DNA of 64,000 nucleotides, taken from the NCBI GenBank assembly GCA_029260165.1, contig JAJDDT010000042.1:1-64000 (forward strand), in the 5' to 3' direction. Origin of the DNA: Phycisphaerae bacterium. Its GTDB lineage: Bacteria > Planctomycetota > Phycisphaerae > UBA1845. Both the position numbers and the translations under genes were made by a program. How positions within the stretch are numbered: position 1 is the first letter of the stretch; each line of letters opens with the position of its first letter. Below are positions 300 through 55,069 of this stretch, piece by piece. The notes under the pieces are model-generated. The model was not told where the DNA came from. It saw only the letters and a list, made by a program, of their open reading frames with translations, and did no database searches.

Positions 300-1358
300 A
301 TGGAAATCACGGATCAGGACATCAATCTGGTGACCGGTGCGTCCGGTCTGTTGGGCAGTCATGTGGTCGAGCAGTTGCGTCGGCGGGGTCGGCGGGTGCG
401 TGCGCTGGTGCGTCCGACGACGGACACGACGTGGCTGCGGACGCAGGGGGTCGAGTTTGCGGAGGGTGATATCACCGATCGGGCGTCGCTGGAGCGGGCG
501 TGCGCGGGCGTGAAGGTGGTTTATCATGTGGCAGCCCGGGTTGGGGATTGGGGTCCGTGGCGGGAATTCCAGGAGATCACGATCGACGGGACACAGAACG
601 TGATCGACGCTGCGGCGGGGGCGGGGGTCGAGAGGATGCTGCATATCAGCTCGATCAGTGTGTACGGGCATGTCGATGGTAAGGGGCTGGTGCTGGATGA
701 GTCGGCTCCGTTGGGACGATGTTTGAACAAGTGGAGCTACTACAGTCGGGCGAAGGTTGCGGCTGAGGCGTTGGTGTGGGAGGCCCATCGGTCAGGTCGG
801 TTGAAGGTGTCGATTATCAGACCCAGTTGGTTGTATGGGCCTCGTGATCGTGCGACGTTGTCGCGGATGATTACGGCCATTCGGCGTGGCAAGACGAAAT
901 TGATCGGTGACGGTAGCAATCGGTTGAATCTGGTTCATGCGGGGAATGCGGCTGAGGCGGCGATTATGGCGGCGGAGTCGGACAAAGGGATCGGGCAGGC
1001 CTACAATGCCAGCAACGACGGCGAGATCACGCAGGCGGGGTATTTCAACGCGATTGCCAGGGCGATCGGTGAGCCGCCGATTGGGAAGAACGTTCCGTAC
1101 AAGGTGGCCAGGACGGCTGCTTTTTTGTTTGAGTTGGTCGGTCATCTGTTCGGTTTGAAGAAACCGCCGTTGGTGACGCGCTATTCGGTGTGGTTGATTG
1201 GTCGCCACAGTTTTTTTGAGACGGAGAAGATCAGGCGTGATCTTGGTTGGTCGTCTTCGGTTTCCTACGAGCAGGGGATTCCTGCGGCGGTGGCGTGGTA
1301 TCTACAGGAGCACGAAAGCGTTGCTCCTGATGTTGGTGTGTCCACCGCTCAAGCCTAG
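300..1358 (+). CDS. NAD(P)-dependent epimerase/dehydratase (extended SDR)
   Basis: This is a 352-residue extended short-chain dehydrogenase/reductase. The nucleotide-binding motif TGASGLLGSH lies at residues 13-22, the D-x-D/T adenine-site region (EGDITD) follows, and the catalytic YYSRAK (YxxxK) sits near residues 146-151 after an HISSISVYG strand. Family members reduce or epimerise sugar nucleotides, sterols or flavonoid-like substrates. The pattern resembles the 3-beta-hydroxysteroid dehydrogenase/hopanoid-associated epimerase branch, but the substrate cannot be read from the sequence. The gene follows the partial transposase on the opposite strand and is followed after 35 bases by the ArsM-like methyltransferase on the same strand. 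No signal peptide is visible. Confidence 0.85.
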   Translation: MEITDQDINLVTGASGLLGSHVVEQLRRRGRRVRALVRPTTDTTWLRTQGVEFAEGDITDRASLERACAGVKVVYHVAARVGDWGPWREFQEITIDGTQNVIDAAAGAGVERMLHISSISVYGHVDGKGLVLDESAPLGRCLNKWSYYSRAKVAAEALVWEAHRSGRLKVSIIRPSWLYGPRDRATLSRMITAIRRGKTKLIGDGSNRLNLVHAGNAAEAAIMAAESDKGIGQAYNASNDGEITQAGYFNAIARAIGEPPIGKNVPYKVARTAAFLFELVGHLFGLKKPPLVTRYSVWLIGRHSFFETEKIRRDLGWSSSVSYEQGIPAAVAWYLQEHESVAPDVGVSTAQA

Positions 1359-1393
1359 TTAACCCGGTTGCGAGCCAGAGGAGTTATTTTCGC

Positions 1394-2542
1394 ATGGAAA
1401 GTAATGTGCGAACGCGTTATGCGTCTGCGGCGACAAAAGTTGAGGCTGCTCTGTGTTGTGCATCTCAGGATTATGATCCCTCGCTTTTGGGCAATGTGCC
1501 CGAGGCGATTCGCGAGATCGATTATGGATGTGGTGACCCGTCGGTCTGGATTCAACCGGGCGAGACGGTGCTTGATCTGGGTAGTGGCAGCGGGAAGGTT
1601 TGCTACATTGCGTCGCAGGTTGTGGGGCGTGATGGGCGGGTGATCGGCGTTGATTTCAATCAGCCCATGTTGGATGTGGCGAGGGAACATCAGTCGGATT
1701 TTGCGTTGAAGACAGGGTTGGATAATCTGAATTTCAGGAAGGGCCGGATTCAGGACCTTGCGTTGGATCTGGATCGTCTTGAGGTGTGGTTGGCGGAAAA
1801 CCCGGTGACGGGGGCGGATGGTTTTCTTCGATTGGAGGAGGAGTCTGCCCGGTTGCGTGCTGATGAGCCGATGGTTGCGACCGAAAGCGTGGATTGCATT
1901 GTGAGCAACTGCGTGCTGAATCTGGTTGATGCGAGTGCGAAGCCGCAACTGTTCCGCGAGATGCATCGGGTATTGAAGCGTGGTGGGCGGTGCGTGATCA
2001 GTGACATCGTATCGGATGAGGACGTGCCGATGCGTTTGCAGCGTGATGCGGATATGTGGAGTGGGTGCATCAGCGGATCATTTCGCGAGGATTTGTTTTT
2101 GAAGGCGTTTGAGGATGCGGGTTTCTACGGGATCGAGGTCGTTGAACGAGCGGATCAACCCTGGCAGGTGATCGAGGGGATCGAATTTCGGTCGGTGACG
2201 GTTCGGGCGTATAAGGGCAAGGAGGGTCCGTGTCTGGATCGCAATCAGGCTGTTGTCTACAAAGGTCCGTGGAAAGCGGTAATCGACGATGACGGTCATA
2301 CGTTGTATCGCGGGGAACGGATGGCGGTTTGCGACAAGACGTATCGAATCTATACGCGGGCACCGTATGTACAGGATGTCGATGCGGTGCTGCCGATGAC
2401 CGAGGTGCCGTTGGATGCCGCGAAGGACTACGACTGTCGGCGTAACGCGCGACGTCGTCCACGCGAGACAAAAGGCAAGGGATATTCGGTAACACTGCAG
2501 AATGGTGACGCCTGCTGCGGTGACAACGGTTCGTGTTGCTGA
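1394..2542 (+). CDS. ArsM-like SAM-dependent methyltransferase
   Basis: This 382-residue class I methyltransferase carries SAM motif I ([16 protein letters not shown]) at residues 59-74 and the acidic motif GVDFNQPML near 85-93. Cysteines at 46 (YGCG), 173 (SNCVLN) and 225 (SGCISG) fall where arsenite methyltransferases keep their three As(III)-binding cysteines. It also has an early CC pair at 21-22 and a cysteine-rich C-terminus ([10 protein letters not shown]). Known ArsM enzymes convert arsenite to methylated arsenicals. The C-terminal third (about residues 240-382) is longer than in minimal ArsM and belongs to a distinct subfamily. No arsR or arsenic transporter is next to it, so a role in arsenic metabolism is inference. 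Convergent with the kinase gene, 15 bases apart. Confidence 0.75.
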
Positions 2543-2557
2543 GGATCGTGGTTCTGT

Positions 2558-3511
2558 TCAGATTGCGGGTGCGAGAGCGTTGAGCACGAGTTGGGCGTTT
2601 TCGGGGCGTTGGGATGGTCCCTTGGCGAGGCAGGCGAGGATGATGTGGCTGATGCGGGCGGGCAGGTCGGGGTTGATCTGGTGCGGGTTGGTTGGGGGTT
2701 TCTCGCGATGGAGTTTTGCGTAGGTTTGGGCGTCGTTGGCTGAGAAGGCACGTTGGCTGGTAAAGAGTTCGTACAGCACCAATCCTAACGAGTATATGTC
2801 GGAGCGGACCGAGACGGCTGTCCGGGCGTGGTGTTCGGGGGGCATGTAGGCGGGGGTGCCTGCGCGGAGCGGTTTTCCTGCGAATTCAGCCGCAACCGAA
2901 GCCAACCCGAAGTCGGTAATGACGACGCGTCCATCCGCAGCGACCATGACGTTGGCGGGTTTGAGATCGTGGTGCAGCACGCCATGTTTGTGAATGGCTG
3001 ACAATCCGTGGCAGAGCTGCCTTGCAATGTCGATGGCGACGTCGAGGGGTGGTTTGCCGGTTTGGCGAAGCATGGTGGCCAGGTCCTGTCCCCTGATGAA
3101 TTCCATTTCGACGATGAGGCGATCGTCCGTGACGGTGGCGTCGAAGACCTGACAGACGTTGGGGTGTTGCAGCTTCCTGGTGATTTCGACTTCGTGTTTT
3201 AGTCGTTCGCGTGAGGCGTCGTCGTTCTGTCTGGATCGTGGGAGGACCTTGAGGACGACGATGTCGTCACGTTCGATATCGGTGGCGGTGTAGAGTTCGC
3301 CCATTCCGCCTCTGGCGATGAATCGTTTGATGCGGAATCGATGGCCGACGTTTTCTTTGGGTGCGAACGTGGGAAGGTAGGACGTGGCGGAGTCTGCCAT
3401 ATCGCTGTAGTTGCGGGTCGGGTCGTCCGCGGGCGCGATCTGAGGTTTTCCGCAATACCTGCAGGCGGAAGCGTTCCTGATTTGTTTGCCACAATGAATG
3501 CAGTTGGCCAT
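2558..3511 (-). CDS. Serine/threonine protein kinase with N-terminal zinc ribbon
   Basis: This is a 317-residue Hanks-type kinase. Residues 4-20 form a C-x2-C...C-x2-C zinc ribbon (C4, C7, C17, C20). The kinase domain follows at about 57-317, with glycine loop IARGGMGELYTA (65-76), ATP-site Lys88, catalytic loop HHDLKPAN (180-187, Asp182), DFG 200-202 and MPPEH in place of APE. The usual HRD Arg is His, so this is a non-RD kinase, which in general is less dependent on activation-loop phosphorylation. There is no transmembrane segment and no PASTA sensor domain, so it is probably cytosolic. ATG start at 3511. It is divergent from the cysteine desulfurase gene, with about 55 bases between starts that must hold both promoters. 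Confidence 0.9.
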   Translation of the reverse strand: MANCIHCGKQIRNASACRYCGKPQIAPADDPTRNYSDMADSATSYLPTFAPKENVGHRFRIKRFIARGGMGELYTATDIERDDIVVLKVLPRSRQNDDASRERLKHEVEITRKLQHPNVCQVFDATVTDDRLIVEMEFIRGQDLATMLRQTGKPPLDVAIDIARQLCHGLSAIHKHGVLHHDLKPANVMVAADGRVVITDFGLASVAAEFAGKPLRAGTPAYMPPEHHARTAVSVRSDIYSLGLVLYELFTSQRAFSANDAQTYAKLHREKPPTNPHQINPDLPARISHIILACLAKGPSQRPENAQLVLNALAPAI

Positions 3512-42289: not shown

Positions 42290-42596
42290 GTCAGCTCCTC
42301 CTCAGGTCTGTCATCTGCCGAGTAGCGATTTTCGCGGAAAGGATTCGCAAGGTCCACGACTTTTCCGACAGCCATTTGCGATCCGTTCCTGAACAGCACC
42401 GTGACCTTGAAGCGTTGCTTGAACAAGTGGCACTTGAAAGACGAGGTAAAACACGGTCAGTAAAGCCCGTGAAGCCGTTTGGCTAAAATCTGTCTTAAGA
42501 TGCTTGAGATTCGCAGGCCAAACCGCTAGATTGGCCGACGTACTTATTATTGGACCACGCATTAGGGGACTTTTGCCGATTTGGAGGGTTAGAAGG
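42290..42596. other. Intergenic stretch between divergent genes
   Basis: 307 bases without a supported gene. TATTAT at 42545-42550 might be a -10 box for the downstream gene, but no good -35 pairs with it. GGAGGG at 42582-42587 is the likely ribosome binding site of the Cys-rich repeat gene. Confidence 0.4.
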
Positions 42597-44390
42597 ATGA
42601 GGCTGGGAAGACTTTGCACGGTGGCGATCGCGGTTTGCGTCATGTCGTTGGTCGGTGCGGACGCGTTGGCGATCCTGCCAAGCCATACCGACGCTGCCAC
42701 GTTCAACGCGGACAATCCGGGGCTGACGGTTTCGGATTTTGAAATCGTGTCGATACCGTTGGGATTCAGCGATCCGGCTGAACTGGATCTGGTCGATGTG
42801 GGTGTGACGTATTTTGGCGAGTCGTTCGTGATTTCGGCGGCGCATAACGGCCCGCTTCCCAGTTCCTCGATCCCTGCAGGTCCGTACAACAACGCCGGCT
42901 CGCAATATCTGATTGGTGGCAAGCCCCTGACGGGTATCTTTGAGATTCTCCTGCCTTCGCCGAGCACGCGATTTGGTCTGGACATAGGGGCGGTTCTGGT
43001 TGGAACGCCGTTGTTGATTATCACGATCGAGTTTCCGGAAATTGGCGAGACGCATGTGTTTTCACCGGGGACTGATTGGCAGTTTTTCGGGTTTGAGTTC
43101 GGTGCTCCGGTCCAATCGGTTGAAATTTTCTTCTCGATCATTGGTGGTGGGGGCGAAGGTGAGAACTTCATCGGAATCGACAACGTGCATTTCGGCAACG
43201 CGGCTGGTGGATGCGGTGATGGCAATGTTGACGCGGGTGAACAGTGCGATGATGGCAACAACATCGATGGTGACGGTTGTGATGCGGGTTGTGTGACTGA
43301 GTTCTGCGGCGACGGAACGGTCAACAACAGTGGGGCTGAGCAATGCGATGATGGGAACAATATCGCCGGTGACGGTTGTGACGCTGGTTGTGTGATCGAG
43401 TTCTGCGGCGACGGAACGGTTAACAACAGCGGGGCTGAACAGTGCGACGACGGGAACAATATCGCCGGTGACGGTTGTGATGCTGGTTGTGTGATCGAGT
43501 TCTGTGGTGACGGGACGGTCAACAACAGTGGAGCTGAGCAATGCGACGACGGGAACAATATCGCTGGTGACGGTTGTGATGCCGGTTGCGTGACCGAGTT
43601 CTGTGGCGATGGAACGGTTAACAACAGCGGGGCTGAGCAATGCGACGACGGGAACAACATCGCCGGTGACGGCTGTGACGCGGGTTGCGTGACCGAGTTC
43701 TGCGGTGACGGAACGGTCAACAACAGTGGGGCTGAGCAGTGCGACGATGGGAACAATGTCGATGGCGACGGTTGCAATGCCGGTTGTGTGACGGAGTTCT
43801 GTGGTGACGGAATCGTCAATAACGGTGGTGCCGAAGTCTGTGACAACGGAGCCGGCAATTCTGATACGCAGCCCGATGCGTGCCGAACCGACTGCTCGCC
43901 GGCGACATGTGGAGACAATGTGATCGATTCGGGCGAGGATTGTGACGACGGTGTCGGTAACGCGAACGCTCCGAATGTCTGTCGCACGAATTGCCGCCTG
44001 CCCGTTTGTGGTGACAGTATTATCGACAACGGGGAAACCTGCGACGACGGTGCATCGTCCGCTGCCTGCGACGTTGATTGCACGCTGCCCATTTGCGGCG
44101 ATGGCGTGGTTAACACCGAGGCGGGTGAAGAGTGCGATGACGGTGGTCCGTCGGTGGCGTGTGACGGCGACTGCACGTCGGCGGCTTGCGGCGACGGGGT
44201 TCTCAATCTCATCGCGGGCGAGCAGTGCGATGACGGCAACAACAACAATGGTGACGGTTGTTCTGCTGATTGCGACCTGGAACCGGGTGAGCCCATCCCA
44301 GCCATCACGACCTGGGGGATGGTTGTGCTGACGACGCTGTTTGTGGTGGGACTGGTCATCAAAACGCGTCGAAAGGCGTCGATGAGGTAG
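42597..44390 (+). CDS. Exported Cys-rich (DUF4215-type) repeat protein with IPTL-CTERM-like tail
   Basis: This 597-residue protein has a signal peptide (LCTVAIAVCVMSLVGADALA) and a beta-rich N-terminal domain to about residue 203. Eleven Cys-rich repeats of the C-G-D-G...E-x-C-D-D-G-N-N type follow, known as myxococcal/DUF4215 repeats. Repeats 2-6 are almost identical 33-residue units. The end EPIPAITTWGMVVLTTLFVVGLVIKTRRK is a sorting tail: an I-P-x-x-x-x-W-G motif, one transmembrane helix and a basic cluster, as in IPTL-CTERM proteins processed by exosortase relatives. Surface location is likely. ATG 42597 with GGAGGG upstream; a rho-independent terminator follows. Confidence 0.8.
   Translation: MRLGRLCTVAIAVCVMSLVGADALAILPSHTDAATFNADNPGLTVSDFEIVSIPLGFSDPAELDLVDVGVTYFGESFVISAAHNGPLPSSSIPAGPYNNAGSQYLIGGKPLTGIFEILLPSPSTRFGLDIGAVLVGTPLLIITIEFPEIGETHVFSPGTDWQFFGFEFGAPVQSVEIFFSIIGGGGEGENFIGIDNVHFGNAAGGCGDGNVDAGEQCDDGNNIDGDGCDAGCVTEFCGDGTVNNSGAEQCDDGNNIAGDGCDAGCVIEFCGDGTVNNSGAEQCDDGNNIAGDGCDAGCVIEFCGDGTVNNSGAEQCDDGNNIAGDGCDAGCVTEFCGDGTVNNSGAEQCDDGNNIAGDGCDAGCVTEFCGDGTVNNSGAEQCDDGNNVDGDGCNAGCVTEFCGDGIVNNGGAEVCDNGAGNSDTQPDACRTDCSPATCGDNVIDSGEDCDDGVGNANAPNVCRTNCRLPVCGDSIIDNGETCDDGASSAACDVDCTLPICGDGVVNTEAGEECDDGGPSVACDGDCTSAACGDGVLNLIAGEQCDDGNNNNGDGCSADCDLEPGEPIPAITTWGMVVLTTLFVVGLVIKTRRKASMR
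43305..43799 (+). repeat. Five tandem 99-bp coding repeats
   Basis: Five head-to-tail units of 99 bp, each encoding CGDGTVNNSGAEQCDDGNN plus a GDGC-AGCV-EF ending. Differences between units are mainly synonymous. The first four are closest; the fifth has NVDGDGCNAGC. More divergent units flank them on both sides. Confidence 0.92.
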
Positions 44391-45621: not shown

Positions 45622-45853
45622 CAGCTTACCTTCTCTTGTCCTCACCCCTGGTCACATGCGACCCGATCCGGGTCGTCCCGCTCCATTATAGAACCAAACC
45701 GCGCGACTTCTGAATGCTTTTTGTCGAATTCGATCGCAAGCTGCGGTTGGCGGTGTCACTCTTATCGGACAGTCGGACGGTTGGCTACCAGAATGTTTGC
45801 GAACCACGCCTGTCGCGATTGACGGTTGGCCAACGCGTCGCGAGGATGGCGGG

Positions 45854-47434
45854 ATGGATGCTCGCGCTGTCGCCACCAACATGATTCGCGTTGTCTACCA
45901 GGACGACCACTACCTGATCGCCCGCAAACCGGCTGGTCTGCCCATGCGCACCCAACGCCGAGGCGTACCCGCAGGACTGGTCGAAGCCCTGATCGAGCTG
46001 GGCTACGGGACCGAAAAGGGCGATCTGACACCTTGCTTTTTGCTTGAAAAATATGTGTCAGGCCTGGTCATTGTCGCCAAAACGCCCCAGGCGGGCTACC
46101 ACATGCAGCGGACGATCGAATCCGGTGGGTTGACGCGGTCGTATGTGGCGGTTGTACGCGGGGATGCGCGGGTCGCACTGAAAAAAGGCTCCGTCGAGGT
46201 CGTCAAACAGTCCGACAAACGCGCGTTGATTCGGTATCCGCACACGGGCAAGGGCGGGCGAAGCCTGCGCGAACTGTTGATCCATCAGCGCATCCCGATC
46301 CTGGGCGACACGCAGTTCGACCCCAGACGCAAGGGCAGACATGGTGGTCGGATGTACCTGCATCTGGAGAGGCTGCAATTCGATCATCCGCTGGAAAACA
46401 AGCCCGTCAACGTCTCTGCTCCGATGCCAAGCGGTTTCAATGTGGTAGCCAATGATGCCGAGACGATGCGGGAGGATGTCGAGGCAGCGTTGGCGGGGCG
46501 GACGTCGTTCCTGCTGGATACCCGGACGGATGCGTACAGGCTGATGGGGGGCAGGTCGGACGGGGTGTCCGGTTTGATTCTTGATCGTCTGGGACCCGTG
46601 GGGATTCTGTTGCTCAAGGAGGGAAAATTCCAGGGTGGGGAGGATCGGGCGAGGCGGGCGGCTGGTTTTTTCGCGAAGGAGCTGGGATTGCAGTCGGTCT
46701 ACATGAAATGGATCCCGCGCGACCGAAGCCATGGCGTTGACAGTGCGCTCGGAGATGCTCGAAGTGCGACGCCGCTGTGGGGTCAGCCAGCCCCTGAAGA
46801 GGTGACCATCCGTGAGAACGGGATGAACCTGCTTGTCAGGCCTTTTGATGGATTCATGACCGGTGTTTTTCTCGATCATCGCGACAATCGCGCGCGAATT
46901 CGGGAGATTTCCAGGGGAAGACGGGTGCTGAACGCGTTTTCGTACACCTGTGCGTTTTCGGTGGCGGCTGCGCTCGGCGGGGCGGAGCAGGTGTCGAGCG
47001 TTGATATTTCCAAACGTAATCTGGAGTGGGGCAAGGCTAATTTCGCGGCTAATAACATTTCGTTGGATGGCCACTACTTCTTTTGCTCGGAGATTTATGA
47101 TTTCTTCACCCGTGCCCGGCGGCAGGAGCGGATGTTTGATGTTGTGATTCTGGATCCACCGACGTTTTCGCGGTCGAAGAAACCGCCGCGGACGTTTCGC
47201 GTGCAGGACGACATGGCTTCGCTGATTCGCGAATCGTTGACGGTTCTGGACAAGGGGGGAACGTTGATGGTGGCTACGAACGAGCGCTTGTTAGATGTGT
47301 CATGGATTCGACAGCAGATCTCGGTCGCATCGGGTGGGCGGGCGTTCAAGGTGGTCGACGTGCCTGACCCGCCGATCGATTTCGAGCACGATTCCGATGC
47401 AGCCAAGACCGTGTTTGCGAGTTTCGATGGTTGA
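45854..47434 (+). CDS. RluA-like domain fused to RlmI-type rRNA methyltransferase
   Basis: This 526-residue fusion has an N-terminal domain (about 8-205) that follows RluA pseudouridine synthases: IRVVYQDDHYLIARKPAGLP, SGLVIVAKT, RSYVAVVRG, HQRIPILGD. The catalytic R-L-D motif, however, reads LLEKYVSG, with Glu65 in place of Asp. The C-terminal domain (about 213-526) is an RlmI/RlmK-like class I methyltransferase: FMTGVFLDHRDNR, VLNAFSYTCAFSVAAALGGA near 359 and ILDPPTFSRSKK near 434. Such enzymes make m5C or m7G in 23S rRNA. ATG 45854 follows GAGG by 8 bases. The stop overlaps tgt by 8 bases. Confidence 0.85.
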   Translation: MDARAVATNMIRVVYQDDHYLIARKPAGLPMRTQRRGVPAGLVEALIELGYGTEKGDLTPCFLLEKYVSGLVIVAKTPQAGYHMQRTIESGGLTRSYVAVVRGDARVALKKGSVEVVKQSDKRALIRYPHTGKGGRSLRELLIHQRIPILGDTQFDPRRKGRHGGRMYLHLERLQFDHPLENKPVNVSAPMPSGFNVVANDAETMREDVEAALAGRTSFLLDTRTDAYRLMGGRSDGVSGLILDRLGPVGILLLKEGKFQGGEDRARRAAGFFAKELGLQSVYMKWIPRDRSHGVDSALGDARSATPLWGQPAPEEVTIRENGMNLLVRPFDGFMTGVFLDHRDNRARIREISRGRRVLNAFSYTCAFSVAAALGGAEQVSSVDISKRNLEWGKANFAANNISLDGHYFFCSEIYDFFTRARRQERMFDVVILDPPTFSRSKKPPRTFRVQDDMASLIRESLTVLDKGGTLMVATNERLLDVSWIRQQISVASGGRAFKVVDVPDPPIDFEHDSDAAKTVFASFDG

Positions 47435-48566
47435 TTCAACCGGGTTTTTATTTGAATTGCTGGGAAACGACGCGGGATCGTTCGCTCGGCGGGGTCGGCT
47501 GGTGACGCCTCACGGGGTTGTGCAGACGCCCGCGTTCATGCCGGTGGGCACGATCGGAGCCATGAAAGGCCTGACGCCGGTGCAGTTGGCGGAGACCGGT
47601 TCGGAAATCATGCTGTCCAACACCTATCACCTGGCGCTTCGACCGACGCCCGGGGTTGTTGAGGGATTGGGAGGGTTGCATCGGTTTACAGGTTGGGATC
47701 GCCCGATTTTGACGGACAGCGGGGGTTTTCAGGTTTTCTCGCTCGCGAAAATCAACAGGATCGACGACGACGGGGTCGATTTCCGGTCGCATATTGATGG
47801 TTCGCTGATCCGTCTGACGCCGGAAATTGCGACGGATATTCAAAACAGGCTCGGCGCGGATATCATCATGGCGTTCGATCAATGTCCCCCGCTGCCCTGC
47901 GATCCTGCGGAGTTGACGGCGGCTGTTGATCGCACGATCGCGTGGGCCAAGCGGTGTCGGGCGGCGCATTCGCGGTCGGATCAGTGGCAATTCGGGATCG
48001 TGCAGGGCGGTGTCGATCACCATCAGCGGCGAATTTGTGCTGAGCAGGTCATCGAGGTTGGGTTTGACGGTTATGCGGTTGGGGGTCTTTCGGTTGGGGA
48101 ATCGCATGAGGAGATGGTGGATGTGCTGACGGGGTTGTGCCCGCGATTGCCGGGGGACAGGCCTCGGTATTTGATGGGGGTGGGTGTGCCTCGGGATTTG
48201 TACGCGGGGGTTCGGGCGGGGATCGACATGTTTGATTGCGTGATTCCGACGCGGAACGGGCGTCACGGGCATGTTTTCACGGCGACGGGACCGTTGAAAA
48301 TGCGGAACGAGCGACATCGGCTGGACGGCGGGCCTCTTGAGGAGGGGTGTGACTGTTATGCCTGTCGGACGTTTTCGCGGGGGTATTTGCGTCATTTGTT
48401 CATGGCTGGGGAGATGCTGGGGCCTACGCTGGCGTCGATTCACAACGTGCGATTTTTGCAGAGGTTGATGGGCAGGATGCGGGATTTGATTTCAACGGGT
48501 GATCTGGCGACAATCCCGGACGAATTTCCCGTGGTACTGGAAACGGATGGAAACGACGAATCTTAG
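47427..48566 (+). CDS. tgt: Queuine/preQ1 tRNA-guanine transglycosylase
   Basis: This 379-residue TIM-barrel enzyme exchanges guanine-34 for preQ1 in tRNAs with GUN anticodons. Catalytic aspartates are in LTDSGGFQVFSL and in MFDCVIPTRNGRHG. The zinc site is CDCYACRTFSRGYLRHLF with the downstream His of ASIHN. The start TPHGVVQTPAFMPVGTIGAMKG is typical. ATG 47427 lies inside the end of the fusion gene (8-base overlap), so the two RNA-modification genes are coupled. yajC follows 9 bases after, the common tgt-yajC arrangement. Confidence 0.96.
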   Translation: MVDSTGFLFELLGNDAGSFARRGRLVTPHGVVQTPAFMPVGTIGAMKGLTPVQLAETGSEIMLSNTYHLALRPTPGVVEGLGGLHRFTGWDRPILTDSGGFQVFSLAKINRIDDDGVDFRSHIDGSLIRLTPEIATDIQNRLGADIIMAFDQCPPLPCDPAELTAAVDRTIAWAKRCRAAHSRSDQWQFGIVQGGVDHHQRRICAEQVIEVGFDGYAVGGLSVGESHEEMVDVLTGLCPRLPGDRPRYLMGVGVPRDLYAGVRAGIDMFDCVIPTRNGRHGHVFTATGPLKMRNERHRLDGGPLEEGCDCYACRTFSRGYLRHLFMAGEMLGPTLASIHNVRFLQRLMGRMRDLISTGDLATIPDEFPVVLETDGNDES

Positions 48567-50252: not shown

Positions 50253-50695
50253 ACTGATGATGATAGAGATTGAGTGACGCGCGGCAATGGTGAATTTATC
50301 CCCGGAGCCTGTTCCTACGATGGCATTACCCTGTTGAAGGCATGCCGCGTACAGGTAATTTGAGGAACTCCGTTTCAACTGCGGCGCGACGTTTCGCATC
50401 CGGCTGTTCTGCTTTTTTTTCGATCTGCTCGTCTGGGAGCTGTGACCGCTTTTCCAGTGTCGTGGCTGATGCTGTTGCGTGATGAAGGTGGGTACGCGTT
50501 ATCGGTCGTGCGTGTCGGCTGGAGTGAAGTGACACTTGCATCGGGGCGGTCGTTTGGGTTTTGACGGGGTTTGAGGTGAAGTTGTGCTTGCGGGGGGTGG
50601 TGGGGGCGCGATAAAATCCGTGTGGTTGAAGAGGTTCAAGTCGGTCCAGGGCACACATGCAGGGGTGTTGCGAAAGGAAGGAAAGGGTACACACA
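50253..50695. other. Intergenic stretch between divergent genes
   Basis: 443 bases with no supported gene between the phosphatase and the large repeat protein. A promoter candidate for the repeat gene is given separately. If the phosphatase starts at 50399, the left part is coding. Confidence 0.4.
50588..50617 (+). promoter_or_regulatory. Possible promoter of the large repeat-protein gene
   Basis: TTGCGG at 50588-50593 and TAAAAT at 50612-50617 with an 18-base spacer, 78 bases upstream of the GTG start at 50696. Weak -35; by-eye match only. Confidence 0.35.
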
Positions 50696-53600
50696 GTGAC
50701 ATCTGTTCGGGCGAGTCTGGCGTTGGTGCTGGTGTTGTCGATGGCGGGTTCGGTGTTGGCTGCGCAGGCGGCTTGCAAGGGGGCTGCTCTGTTCGCGCTG
50801 GATGCGGACGCGGGGGATTTTTTCGGGTATTCGGTGTCGGTGGATGGTTTTACGGGGTTGGTTGGTGCGCCGCGGGATGACGAGCACCTTGCCGACGCGG
50901 GGGCTGCCTACATTTTTGAATTCAACGGTGCGACGTGGGTGCAGCGTCAGAAGCTGACGGCGTCTGATGCGCAGTTTTTTGACTGGTTTGGGGGCGGGGT
51001 GGCGTTGGATGGTGAGTGGGCGTTGATTGGGGCGCCGTTCAAGACGTTTGCGAGCGTGAATTCGGGTGTGGTTTATGCGTTCAAGCGTGTTGGCGGGGTT
51101 TGGGTTGAGCAGCAGAAGCTGGTGCCTTCGGATGCGGGGTCGTCGGACTGGTTTGGGTTTGATATTGCGATGGATGGGGGTTTGGCTGTTATCGGGTCGA
51201 GCAGGAATGATGCTGTGGGGATGGATTCCGGGTCGGCGTTTGTGTTTCGGCTGGTGGGTGGGGTCTGGGTTGAGGAGCAGAAGCTGACGGCGTCTGGTGG
51301 GGCGGGTGGTGATGAATTTGGTGGTGCGGTGGCGGTGGCTGGTGATGTGGTGGTGGTTGGTTCGGCGCTCGCGGATGTGCCATTTGTTGGGGCGGGTTCT
51401 GCGTATGTTTTTCGGTTTGACGGGTTGGGTTGGGTGGAGGAGCAGCGGTTGACGGCGGACGATGCGGCGGGCGGTGATGCGTTTGGTTCGTCGGTGGGGG
51501 TTGACGCGGGGCGGGTTCTGGTCGGTGCGACGATGGAGGACAAGGCGGCCAACAATGGTGGGGCGGTTTATGTTTTTGAGGAGACGTTGGGGCCTGTGAC
51601 GTGGGTTCAGTCGCAGAAGTTGACGGTTCCGGTCAGCGGTGCGGGCGACATGATTGGGGCGTCGTTGTCGATGGATGGTGATGCGTCGTTGGTGGGTGGT
51701 CCCCGGGTTGATCAGTTCGGGTTTAATTCCGGTCGGGCGTTTTTGTATCGGGAGCTGAGTGGGGCGGGTTGGCAGTTGCGCCGGGTGTTGGAGTCGGGTT
51801 TTCCGATGCCGGGCGATCAGTTCGGTTTTTCGTTGTCGCTGAGTGGGGATATTGCGATGGTGTCGTCGCATCTGGATAACACGTTTGGGGATGATGCGGG
51901 GGCGGTGTTTGTCTTTTTCGTTGGGTTTGATGCGGATCTGGATGGGGTTTCGGATGCGTGCGACAACTGTGTGGTGTTGTTTAATCCCGGGCAGGAGGAT
52001 TGTGACGGGGATGGGCTTGGGGATGTTTGTGAGATTGCGGCGGGGATTTCCGAGGATTGCGATGGGAACGGGATTCCCGATGAGTGTCAGGCTGAGCCGT
52101 TGCCGGGAGATGACTGCGATGGGGATGGTGTTCCCGATGTTTGCGAGACGGACTGTCAGCCCAATGGGGTGCCTGATGATTGCGATGTGTTTGACGGGAC
52201 GAGTCTGGATTGCAATTTGAATGGTGTGCCGGACGAGTGCGAAACGGATTGTCAGCCTAACGGGTTTCCGGATTCGTGTGATCTTGTTTCGGGATTGAGT
52301 GCGGATTGCAATGGCAATGCGGTGCCTGACGAATGCGATACGTCGGCAGGCGGGGGGAGCGTTGATTGTAACGGCAACATGGTGCCCGATGAGTGTGAGC
52401 GTGATTGTCAGCCTAACGGGGTGGCGGACTCGTGCGATATTTCGTCGGGGACGAGCGGTGATTGTAATGCGAGCGGGATTCCGGATGAATGTGAGCTGAC
52501 GATCGGGACGGATTGCAATCTCAATGGTTCGCTGGATTCGTGTGATATTTCGTCGATGACGAGCGGCGATTGCAACGGGAATGGTGTGCCGGATGAGTGC
52601 GATGTGGTGTCGAAGGCGAGTGCTGATTGCAATCTGGATGGGGTGCCTGACGAGTGTGAGACGGATTGTGATGCGAATGGTTTTCCGGACGATTGTGATA
52701 TTGCGGGTGGGGCGGTGGATTGCGATTTGAACGGTGTCCCCGATGTTTGTGACATTGCGGGCGGTGCGTTGGATTGCAACGTGAATGGTATTCCGGATGT
52801 GTGCGAGCCGGACTGTCAGCCTAACGGCATTCCTGATGATTGTGATCTTGCGGGAGGGTTGCCGGATTGCAATGGGAATGGTTTGCCCGACGCGTGCGAT
52901 TTGACGGGTGGATTGAATGATTGTGATGGCAATGGGGTTCCGGACGAGTGTGATACGGATTGTAATGTGAATGGTGTTCCGGACGTCTGTGACATTGCGG
53001 CGCAGACAAGTCCGGATTGCAACGCAAACACGGTTCCCGATGAGTGTGATATTGTCAATGGGGCGGCGGACTGCAACAGTAACGTCGTGCCCGATGAGTG
53101 TGAGCGTGATTGTCAGCCCAATGGTGTTCCCGATGATTGTGATATTGCGGCGATGGTGAGCGTGGACTGCAACGTGAATGGTGCTCCGGATGAATGTGAT
53201 GTGGCGTCGATGTTGTCTCCGGATTGCAATGGCAACGTGATCCCGGACGAGTGTGAGGTTGATTGCAACGGTAACGGTGTACCGGACGATTGTGATATTG
53301 CGTCAATGGTGGTTCGAGACTGCAACGGGAACGGCGTGCCGGATGTTTGTGAGATTCAGGGGGGGGCGTCGGATTGTAACGGGAACGGGATACCGGATGT
53401 TTGTGAAACGGATTGTCAGCCTAACGGGATTCCCGATGATTGCGATATTGTGAATGAGATCAGTGTTGACTGTGATCTGAACGGTGTTCCGGATGAGTGT
53501 GATATTGCAGGTGGGGCGGTGGATTGCAACGGCAACGCGATTCCAGACCGGTGTGAGCCTGACTGTCAGCCCAATGGTGTGGCGGATGCGTGTGATATTT

Positions 53601-55069
53601 CGGTGGGAACGAGTCCGGACTGTGATGTGAACGGTGTGCCGGACGAATGTGATATTGCCGGCGGGGCGGTTGATTGTAATGGCAATGGGATACCCGACGT
53701 TTGCGAGACCGATTGTGACGGTAATGGCGTGCCGGATGATTGTGATATTATTTCCGGCGTGGTGTTTGATTGCAATTCCAACGGTGTTCCGGACGGATGT
53801 GATATTGTCGGGGGCGGGGCGGATTGCAACGCAAACGGGGTTCCCGACGAATGCGAGGATGACTGTCAGCCTAACGGGGTTCCTGACGCGTGTGATATTG
53901 CGTCCGGTACGAGTGCGGATTGTGATGGCAATGGTGTTCCGGACATGTGCGATATTTCGGCGGGGGCGATGGATTGCAATGGCAATGGTGTGCCGGACGG
54001 GTGCGATCTGGCGAGCGGGGTGAGCAGTGACTGCGATGGGGACGGTGTTTTGGATGAATGTCTGCTGGGGCCTTGCATGCGGGATTGCGACTGTGTTCTG
54101 GGTGCTGTCTCGCTCGCGGGGATGGCGGATCCGGGAGTGTTTCCGTCGGCGTGTACGGATGTGTGTCATTATCTATATTGTGATATGGATGGACAGTGTC
54201 GCACCTGTTCGCGGAGATGGGGAAACACCTGTAGTGTTTATTCGGGGAATGTTGGGACGAGCGATATCCTGTGTTCGGTGAACGCGTTTGGAAATTACTG
54301 TTCCTGTCCGAATGCGGATTTGAAGAATGATTCGGATCCGTCGGGGAAGGGGCCTAGTGGCGTGCCGCTTACGACCGGGGATCTTCTTGCCGTTGTGGAT
54401 GCGTTTGGTGGTGCGGATCCATTTGGCTGTTCATCGGATGGTTTTGTTTCGTGCGATGATGTGGGCCTGACACCTGCGTCGGGTTGTACGTCTTCCGCGA
54501 TTGGTGCGTCGGCGGCGAGCGGCGGGCTGGAGCGTATGTTCGGCGTGCAACGATCCTGGACGGCTGGGGCGGCGACCTCCGCGCAGTTCAGGTTGGTGCC
54601 TCGTCGGCGGGCGGTGCGCGCGGGCGGGATGTTGGAAGTGGATGTGTTCGTCAGCGGTGTTTCGGGATTGGTCGGGTATCAGTTTGGTGCGGTGGCGGAG
54701 CACCTGGGTGACGAGCGGATGGACCCGGTGCCTGAGACGGTTGAGACGGAGATGTTTCGGGCTGACTACGTTTTCGCGGGGTTGTATGGATTGCCGGCGG
54801 TTGATCGTTCGCTGGGTCGTCTTGGTGGTGTGGTGATGGACGCGGGTGTGACGGTTGGTGATGACGCGTTGGCTTATCTGGGGACGTATCGTTGGCGTGT
54901 GCCGGAGGGTGCGGTGGGCCGGATCGAGGTCAGGCCGGCGGTGGAGCATCTCGGATTGTGGACGGCGGATTCCGGTCGGATCGTTGCGGACGCAGGGCGT
55001 TGGGTCGCGGTGGTGGTGGTCGCTGGTGATGTGCCGTCTTCCAAGACCCCGCGTGCGGGGCGGCGTTAG
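50696..55069 (+). CDS. Very large exported FG-GAP and Asp/Cys calcium-repeat protein
   Basis: This 1457-residue protein starts at GTG 50696 (AAGGAAAGGG 8 bases upstream) with a signal peptide (VRASLALVLVLSMAGSVLA). Residues about 30-410 are seven FG-GAP propeller-type repeats (DFFGYSVSVDG...GAAYIFEF). Residues about 413-1130 are 41 tandem units of the D-C-x-x-N-G-x-P-D-x-C form, akin to thrombospondin type 3 calcium repeats. A Cys-rich spacer, a single dockerin-like helix (TTGDLLAVVDAFGG) and a cohesin-like terminal domain (about 1305-1455: GGMLEVDVFVSGVSGLVGYQF) follow. Probably a rigid calcium-stabilised surface or secreted protein. No membrane anchor. Confidence 0.8.
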   Translation: MTSVRASLALVLVLSMAGSVLAAQAACKGAALFALDADAGDFFGYSVSVDGFTGLVGAPRDDEHLADAGAAYIFEFNGATWVQRQKLTASDAQFFDWFGGGVALDGEWALIGAPFKTFASVNSGVVYAFKRVGGVWVEQQKLVPSDAGSSDWFGFDIAMDGGLAVIGSSRNDAVGMDSGSAFVFRLVGGVWVEEQKLTASGGAGGDEFGGAVAVAGDVVVVGSALADVPFVGAGSAYVFRFDGLGWVEEQRLTADDAAGGDAFGSSVGVDAGRVLVGATMEDKAANNGGAVYVFEETLGPVTWVQSQKLTVPVSGAGDMIGASLSMDGDASLVGGPRVDQFGFNSGRAFLYRELSGAGWQLRRVLESGFPMPGDQFGFSLSLSGDIAMVSSHLDNTFGDDAGAVFVFFVGFDADLDGVSDACDNCVVLFNPGQEDCDGDGLGDVCEIAAGISEDCDGNGIPDECQAEPLPGDDCDGDGVPDVCETDCQPNGVPDDCDVFDGTSLDCNLNGVPDECETDCQPNGFPDSCDLVSGLSADCNGNAVPDECDTSAGGGSVDCNGNMVPDECERDCQPNGVADSCDISSGTSGDCNASGIPDECELTIGTDCNLNGSLDSCDISSMTSGDCNGNGVPDECDVVSKASADCNLDGVPDECETDCDANGFPDDCDIAGGAVDCDLNGVPDVCDIAGGALDCNVNGIPDVCEPDCQPNGIPDDCDLAGGLPDCNGNGLPDACDLTGGLNDCDGNGVPDECDTDCNVNGVPDVCDIAAQTSPDCNANTVPDECDIVNGAADCNSNVVPDECERDCQPNGVPDDCDIAAMVSVDCNVNGAPDECDVASMLSPDCNGNVIPDECEVDCNGNGVPDDCDIASMVVRDCNGNGVPDVCEIQGGASDCNGNGIPDVCETDCQPNGIPDDCDIVNEISVDCDLNGVPDECDIAGGAVDCNGNAIPDRCEPDCQPNGVADACDISVGTSPDCDVNGVPDECDIAGGAVDCNGNGIPDVCETDCDGNGVPDDCDIISGVVFDCNSNGVPDGCDIVGGGADCNANGVPDECEDDCQPNGVPDACDIASGTSADCDGNGVPDMCDISAGAMDCNGNGVPDGCDLASGVSSDCDGDGVLDECLLGPCMRDCDCVLGAVSLAGMADPGVFPSACTDVCHYLYCDMDGQCRTCSRRWGNTCSVYSGNVGTSDILCSVNAFGNYCSCPNADLKNDSDPSGKGPSGVPLTTGDLLAVVDAFGGADPFGCSSDGFVSCDDVGLTPASGCTSSAIGASAASGGLERMFGVQRSWTAGAATSAQFRLVPRRRAVRAGGMLEVDVFVSGVSGLVGYQFGAVAEHLGDERMDPVPETVETEMFRADYVFAGLYGLPAVDRSLGRLGGVVMDAGVTVGDDALAYLGTYRWRVPEGAVGRIEVRPAVEHLGLWTADSGRIVADAGRWVAVVVVAGDVPSSKTPRAGRR
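51990..54080 (+). repeat. Array of 41 degenerate 39-60 bp coding repeats
   Basis: The DNA repeats a core close to GATTGTAATGGCAATGG then GTGCCGGACGAGTGTGA, encoding D-C-x-x-N-G-x-P-D-x-C. Units alternate between a short form of 13 residues, ending CET/CER/CEP and often followed by DCQPNG, and a long form of 17-20 residues carrying an I-A-G-G-A-V or S-G-T-S linker. Spacers are coding, so this is not a CRISPR array. Confidence 0.9.

Follow-up and report, generated by a model that had tools for sequence, protein, structure and literature searches.

What does a protein do that joins an RluA-type pseudouridine synthase domain, stripped of its catalytic aspartate, to an rRNA methyltransferase in a single reading frame? 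The question is raised by a gene in the window, by which we mean the whole stretch of 64,000 nucleotides of Phycisphaerae DNA analysed here. The listed open reading frame begins further upstream, at the TTG at 45797. We place the start at the ATG at 45854, which corresponds to the MDAR position at which the congeneric protein starts; from there a frame of 526 amino acids runs through 47434 with no internal stop. The features on which the argument draws are these:

45854..47434, + strand: fusion gene, 526 aa, pseudo-RluA domain followed by an RlmK/RlmQ-type methyltransferase (start shared with the congener L005)
45869..46462, + strand: RluA-family pseudouridine synthase fold, residues 6-203, catalytically degenerate (PF00849, structure match, dN/dS)
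46037..46063, + strand: degenerate motif II, residues 62-70, F-L-L-E-K-Y-V-S-G where the canonical form is H-R-L-D-x-x-T-S-G (alignment)
46046-46048, + strand: Glu65 at the place of the catalytic Asp (alignment)
46241..46279, + strand: degenerate motif III, residues 130-142, canonically P-x-T-G-R-T-H-Q-I-R-V-H-A (alignment)
46268-46270, + strand: R139, the invariant motif III Arg (alignment and tree mapping)
46463..47431, + strand: SAM-dependent methyltransferase part, residues 204-526, on the RlmK/RlmQ side of COG1092 (PF10672, tree, structure)
47153..47167, + strand: conserved D-P-P-T-F motif of SAM methyltransferases, residues 434-438 (alignment)
47276..47281, + strand: T-N, residues 475-476, where RlmI-type m5C enzymes have S-C-S (alignment and tree)
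47427..48566, + strand: tgt, queuine tRNA-ribosyltransferase, its first 8 bases shared with the 3′ end of the fusion gene

Both halves are recognised by Pfam, PF00849 (pseudouridine synthase) at residues 19-106 with 28.3 bits, which barely exceeds the cut-off of 26.8, and PF10672 (SAM methyltransferase) at residues 315-517 with 93.4 bits. A sequence-only reading of the locus, which had described a synthase-like domain fused to a methyltransferase in one open reading frame, is thus upheld. AlphaFold2, run with a 47-sequence alignment, predicted the whole protein with a pLDDT of 93.1 and a pTM of 0.91. In this predicted structure residues 6-203 have the RluA catalytic-domain fold, matching the catalytic domain of E. 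coli RluC with a Z score of 20.8 (rmsd 2.8 A, 188 residues aligned) and RluA (2i82) with a Z score of 20.5, which makes the front half a complete RluA-type domain rather than a fragment of one. It shares with the E. coli synthases RluC, RluA, RluD and TruC the catalytic-domain fold, the K-P of motif I, Tyr97 and Arg139. Unlike them, it has Glu in place of Asp and Leu in place of Arg, has lost the T-G-R-T-H-Q of motif III, lacks an S4 domain and is fused to a methyltransferase.

The loss of the active site is extensive. The motif II region reads C61-F62-L63-L64-E65 where intact relatives have H-R-L-D at 62-65, so that the base-flipping Arg has gone along with the catalytic Asp. Motif III reads G-K-G-G-R-S-L-R against the canonical T-G-R-T-H-Q-I-R, with R139 alone retained, and the remnants of the active site in the window protein are Y97 and R139. 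The earlier observation that R-L-D reads L-L-E here was accurate, down to the numbering of Glu65. A sequencing error or an isolated mutation can be ruled out, because the congener, which is 72% identical, carries the same motif (CFLLEKYVSG) and the site is degenerate in almost all of the family. The L-L-E pattern is far beyond chance, being kept in that congener, while the architecture is kept in orthologues of about 30-49% identity. In characterised enzymes these residues are essential: the catalytic Asp is required in TruA, TruB, RluA and RsuA, the Arg108Ala variant of RluB is inactive, as are Lys or Met variants of the corresponding Arg of RluA (PMC3919597), and RluC D144A forms no pseudouridine (PMC11194073). 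Since those synthases need both motif II residues, Asp as well as Arg, the window domain presumably makes no pseudouridine.

The fused protein is present in most of the genomes searched of the window's family within the Phycisphaerae, its named carriers being mostly Phycisphaerae MAGs, and comparison among them shows that the motif II residues have changed many times. In the alignment of 24 fused Phycisphaerae proteins the place of the catalytic Asp is occupied by Glu in nine, Ser in six, Asp in three, Gly and Asn in two each, and Pro and Ala in one each, whereas 22 of 23 fused proteins of other groups have Asp there and the remaining one Glu. The partner Arg is kept in 12/24 Phycisphaerae proteins as against 23/23 in the other groups; R139 is Arg in all 24. 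When these positions were mapped on a tree built from the methyltransferase half alone, with the scored synthase columns left out, a minimum of 10 changes was required at the Asp place and of 9 at the Arg place, with none at R139. It had been suggested that the front domain might work with Glu. On this reading it is still a pseudouridine synthase in which Glu65 stands in for Asp, and the protein shares the bifunctionality of its intact relatives. Glu is indeed the commonest residue at that place in the clade, Y97 and R139 survive in the window protein, fused relatives with an intact site are common, and two Phycisphaerae proteins (L011 and L014) keep the Arg, Asp, Tyr and motif III Arg together. 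Because of these two, and of the Asp in 3/24, inactivity need not extend to the entire Phycisphaerae family. The window protein itself, however, has Leu for the Arg of R-L-D and little of motif III, its sister lineages carry Ser, Asn, Gly, Pro or Ala at the place of the Asp, and mutation of either motif II residue abolishes activity in the characterised synthases cited above. We consider a Glu-dependent synthase here to be improbable.

If the domain is not a synthase, it might be a functionless remnant awaiting deletion, with the stand-alone methyltransferases of sister families as the end state. Many other Phycisphaerae (L019-L033, L044-L049) do carry the methyltransferase alone, encoded by frames some 320-430 aa long, and in these relatives the methyltransferase can thus do without the front domain; one fused protein (L015) adjoins the stand-alone methyltransferases of sister families in the tree, and motifs II and III have decayed in many lineages. 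The constraint on the domain is difficult to reconcile with this explanation. Among the same close Phycisphaerae pairs, dN/dS (NG86) was 0.07-0.19 for the synthase domain and 0.09-0.21 for the methyltransferase domain, values that are rough since dS was 1.1-2.2 and thus near saturation. Even deeply diverged members retain the fold and R139, and the domain is present in most of the family's genomes. The synthase domains of the decayed group also carry a net charge of +7.0 per 100 aa, compared with +2.4 in intact fused proteins, +0.1 in the family's own RluD-like paralogues and +2.0 in E. coli, although this may partly reflect composition because the methyltransferase half of the decayed group is likewise somewhat more basic. 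The low dN/dS, the confidently predicted fold and a charge more basic than that of active relatives together argue that the decayed domain is not junk, and we regard the remnant explanation as quite unlikely. Constraint combined with basic charge fits a retained RNA-binding surface. The earlier proposal that the front domain had become an RNA-binding guide is therefore plausible as far as the RluA fold, the lost catalytic residues and the purifying selection go; on this proposal the domain would still bind rRNA.

The methyltransferase half was identified previously as RlmI-type, with its SAM and D-P-P-T-F motifs kept. The second part of that description is correct: the SAM-binding D384 is present together with D-P-P-T-F at 434-438, and D384, D434 and P436 are invariant in 47 fused proteins. 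The first part is not. In RlmI, which makes m5C1962, the Cys of the S-C-S motif is the catalytic one; the window protein has the same COG1092/PF10672 fold (3c0k, Z 32.8), but T-N replaces S-C-S, and the domain's only conserved Cys, C366, lies elsewhere. In the methyltransferase tree RlmI was represented by the E. coli enzyme and by the RlmI-like protein that the genome itself encodes. RlmK, the RlmQ-type proteins and the fused proteins were separated from that side with an SH-aLRT of 99; the tree did not settle the deep order or the place of the fused proteins among RlmK and RlmQ. Lacking the cysteine motif, and placed as it is in the tree, the protein can be rejected as an m5C methyltransferase of the RlmI type.

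Two enzymes on this side of the tree are informative. RlmK, the C-terminal half of E. coli RlmKL, makes m7G2069 and gives the best NCBIfam match to the methyltransferase part (164.7 bits, model positions 502-663; structural Z 31.4). RlmKL, too, unites two rRNA-modifying enzymes by fusion; in E. coli, however, the partner of RlmK is another methyltransferase (RlmL), and RlmK proteins form a clade of their own (100). RlmQ, or YwbD, of Bacillus subtilis reportedly makes m7G2574. RlmQ-type proteins resemble the window protein in lacking the RlmI cysteine and in having T-N at the same place, and differ in that a short N-terminal domain stands where the window protein has its pseudo-synthase domain and in forming a separate tree branch. 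The closest solved structures to the methyltransferase part are from Firmicutes, 3vse (Z 39.4) and SMU.776 (3ldf, Z 36.5), both of which we take to be RlmQ. The genome also encodes a separate RlmI-like protein with TCSCSG (L228) and a stand-alone RlmL (on contig C96), and no second RlmK-like gene was found in it. From the RlmK/RlmQ grouping, the T-N, these two other genes and the single RlmK-like gene, our best guess is that the methyltransferase makes an m7G of 23S rRNA near the peptidyl-transferase centre, with G2069 and G2574 alike possible. RluC, the closest solved synthase to the front half, acts at 2504 and 2580 (PMC11194073); it is speculation on our part that the closeness of these sites to 2574 is perhaps no accident.

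Taken together, we favour, with moderate confidence, the explanation that the gene encodes an active RlmK/RlmQ-like methyltransferase of 23S rRNA that retains a catalytically dead RluA domain for the binding and positioning of RNA, the methyl group probably going to N7 of a guanine close to the peptidyl-transferase centre. The groove of the pseudo-synthase, with R139 and the basic surface, would most likely hold a 23S stem-loop. The stem-loop so held could present a guanine to the methyltransferase half, which might then methylate it by m7G-type chemistry. An alternate explanation is that the protein is mainly a 50S assembly factor, both halves binding rRNA and chaperoning its folding around the peptidyl-transferase centre, and methylation being of secondary importance. 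For example, RlmB and RlmKL have been shown to aid 50S assembly even when they do not modify RNA, in an E. coli strain devoid of ten modification enzymes (PMC11194073), and the structural neighbours of the protein include 6yxx_E4 (Z 28.4), 7am2_BZ and 7aoi_XP, which are proteins from assembly intermediates of the mitoribosomal large subunit of trypanosomes and Leishmania. Yet inactive RluC (D144A) gave no assembly help in the same E. coli study (PMC11194073), and the strict conservation of the SAM-methyltransferase motifs argues for methylation as the selected function. A predominantly assembly-related role is in our view unlikely, if the least so of the alternatives weighed here.

The search for the same domain pair that had been proposed for this locus recovered it through the Phycisphaerae family and in other phyla. 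Full-length fused proteins with an intact H/Q-R-L-D occur in Verrucomicrobiota, where they are many and include an Akkermansia MAG, in Myxococcota, in Herpetosiphon aurantiacus and in a planctomycete family (f31). They have the same two domains in the same order as the window protein over its full length, and differ in that motif II (HRLDxxTSG) and motif III are intact; PF00849 scores 98-117 bits in the five of them that were checked (L054, L057, L058, L071, L107) compared with 28-31 here. We found no characterisation of the intact fused proteins in the literature, and a search of the open-access literature for the fusion, active or decayed, returned no paper, in agreement with the earlier remark that no characterised enzyme of this architecture was known. 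Orthologues with R-L-D and proven activity had been named as the evidence that would count against a lost catalytic function. Many relatives of the same architecture do keep R-L-D, but none is known to be active, and these relatives point to decay from a bifunctional ancestor without contradicting a loss of function here. Given the intact fused proteins of other phyla and of family f31 on one side and the varied Phycisphaerae residues on the other, it is likely that the ancestor was bifunctional and that the synthase site decayed later.

In the synthase tree the decayed domains group in one clade (100/99), and fused groups and RlmK come together in the methyltransferase tree with moderate support (94). 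The free synthase tree does not unite all fused synthase domains, and constraining them to one clade cost 7.75 log units (p-AU 0.22), so that a single origin of the fusion is neither rejected nor supported; in the careful tree the decayed domains lie, with weak support, close to a synthase of the same genome that is linked to a rhodanese, a placement that is possibly due to long-branch attraction. In two Bdellovibrionales an intact synthase (VHRLDRPTAG) is followed directly 3′ by a separate methyltransferase (L051, 4220-4951 and 4870-5934; L052, 4264-4995 and 4962-5978) that is related to the window's and belongs to the same clade. These synthases were considered as the unfused ancestor and rejected, as they do not clearly group with the fused ones; the Bdellovibrionales pairing apparently arose independently, and synthase and methyltransferase may have been paired on more than one occasion.

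Pseudo-enzymes in general are well known, but we know of no bacterial RluA-family pseudo-synthase that is a retained part of an rRNA methyltransferase. The window protein appears to be one end of a larger, undescribed series. We offer only tentatively the broader idea that widespread two-headed rRNA enzymes, a synthase joined to an m7G-type methyltransferase in one chain, modify two neighbouring sites near the peptidyl-transferase centre, and that in Phycisphaerae the synthase head has repeatedly turned into a dead guide by which the methyltransferase is aimed. If this were true, a natural series would run from intact bifunctional enzymes through decayed synthase domains to the methyltransferase alone, along which one could trace how an rRNA-modifying activity is lost and its domain converted to RNA binding; the human gut genus Akkermansia would carry an uncharacterised bifunctional enzyme, for which the series would hint at the first rRNA sites to consider.

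Among the loci examined, tgt directly 3′ of the fusion gene is common only to the window and the congener, so the neighbourhood gives no functional clue. Several minor observations may be recorded. Decay similar to that in Phycisphaerae is seen elsewhere: a Polyangium protein (L113, 721-2409) has Q-R-L-E (QRLERDASG) with motif III also degenerate, and motif III of the fused synthase domain is degenerate in a member of the Myxococcales (L074). The rhodanese-linked synthase of the same genome (L002, contig C64 of G000, 1312-3204, - strand) is a UPF0176/TrhO-type rhodanese fused to an intact RluA-type synthase in a 631-aa frame (PF17773, PF00581 and PF00849), and PF00849 frames of comparable length, 603-613 aa, are present in relatives. 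Elsewhere in the window, the product of 42504-44390 (+ strand) carries DUF4215 six times in tandem (CGDGTVNNSGAEQCDDGNN...) and ends in a hydrophobic stretch with basic residues after it, and is probably a surface protein. The 1470-aa product of 50657-55069 (+ strand) contains a long array of short repeats rich in Asp, Asn and Cys (DCNGNGVPDECD-like) and is probably a secreted calcium-binding protein.
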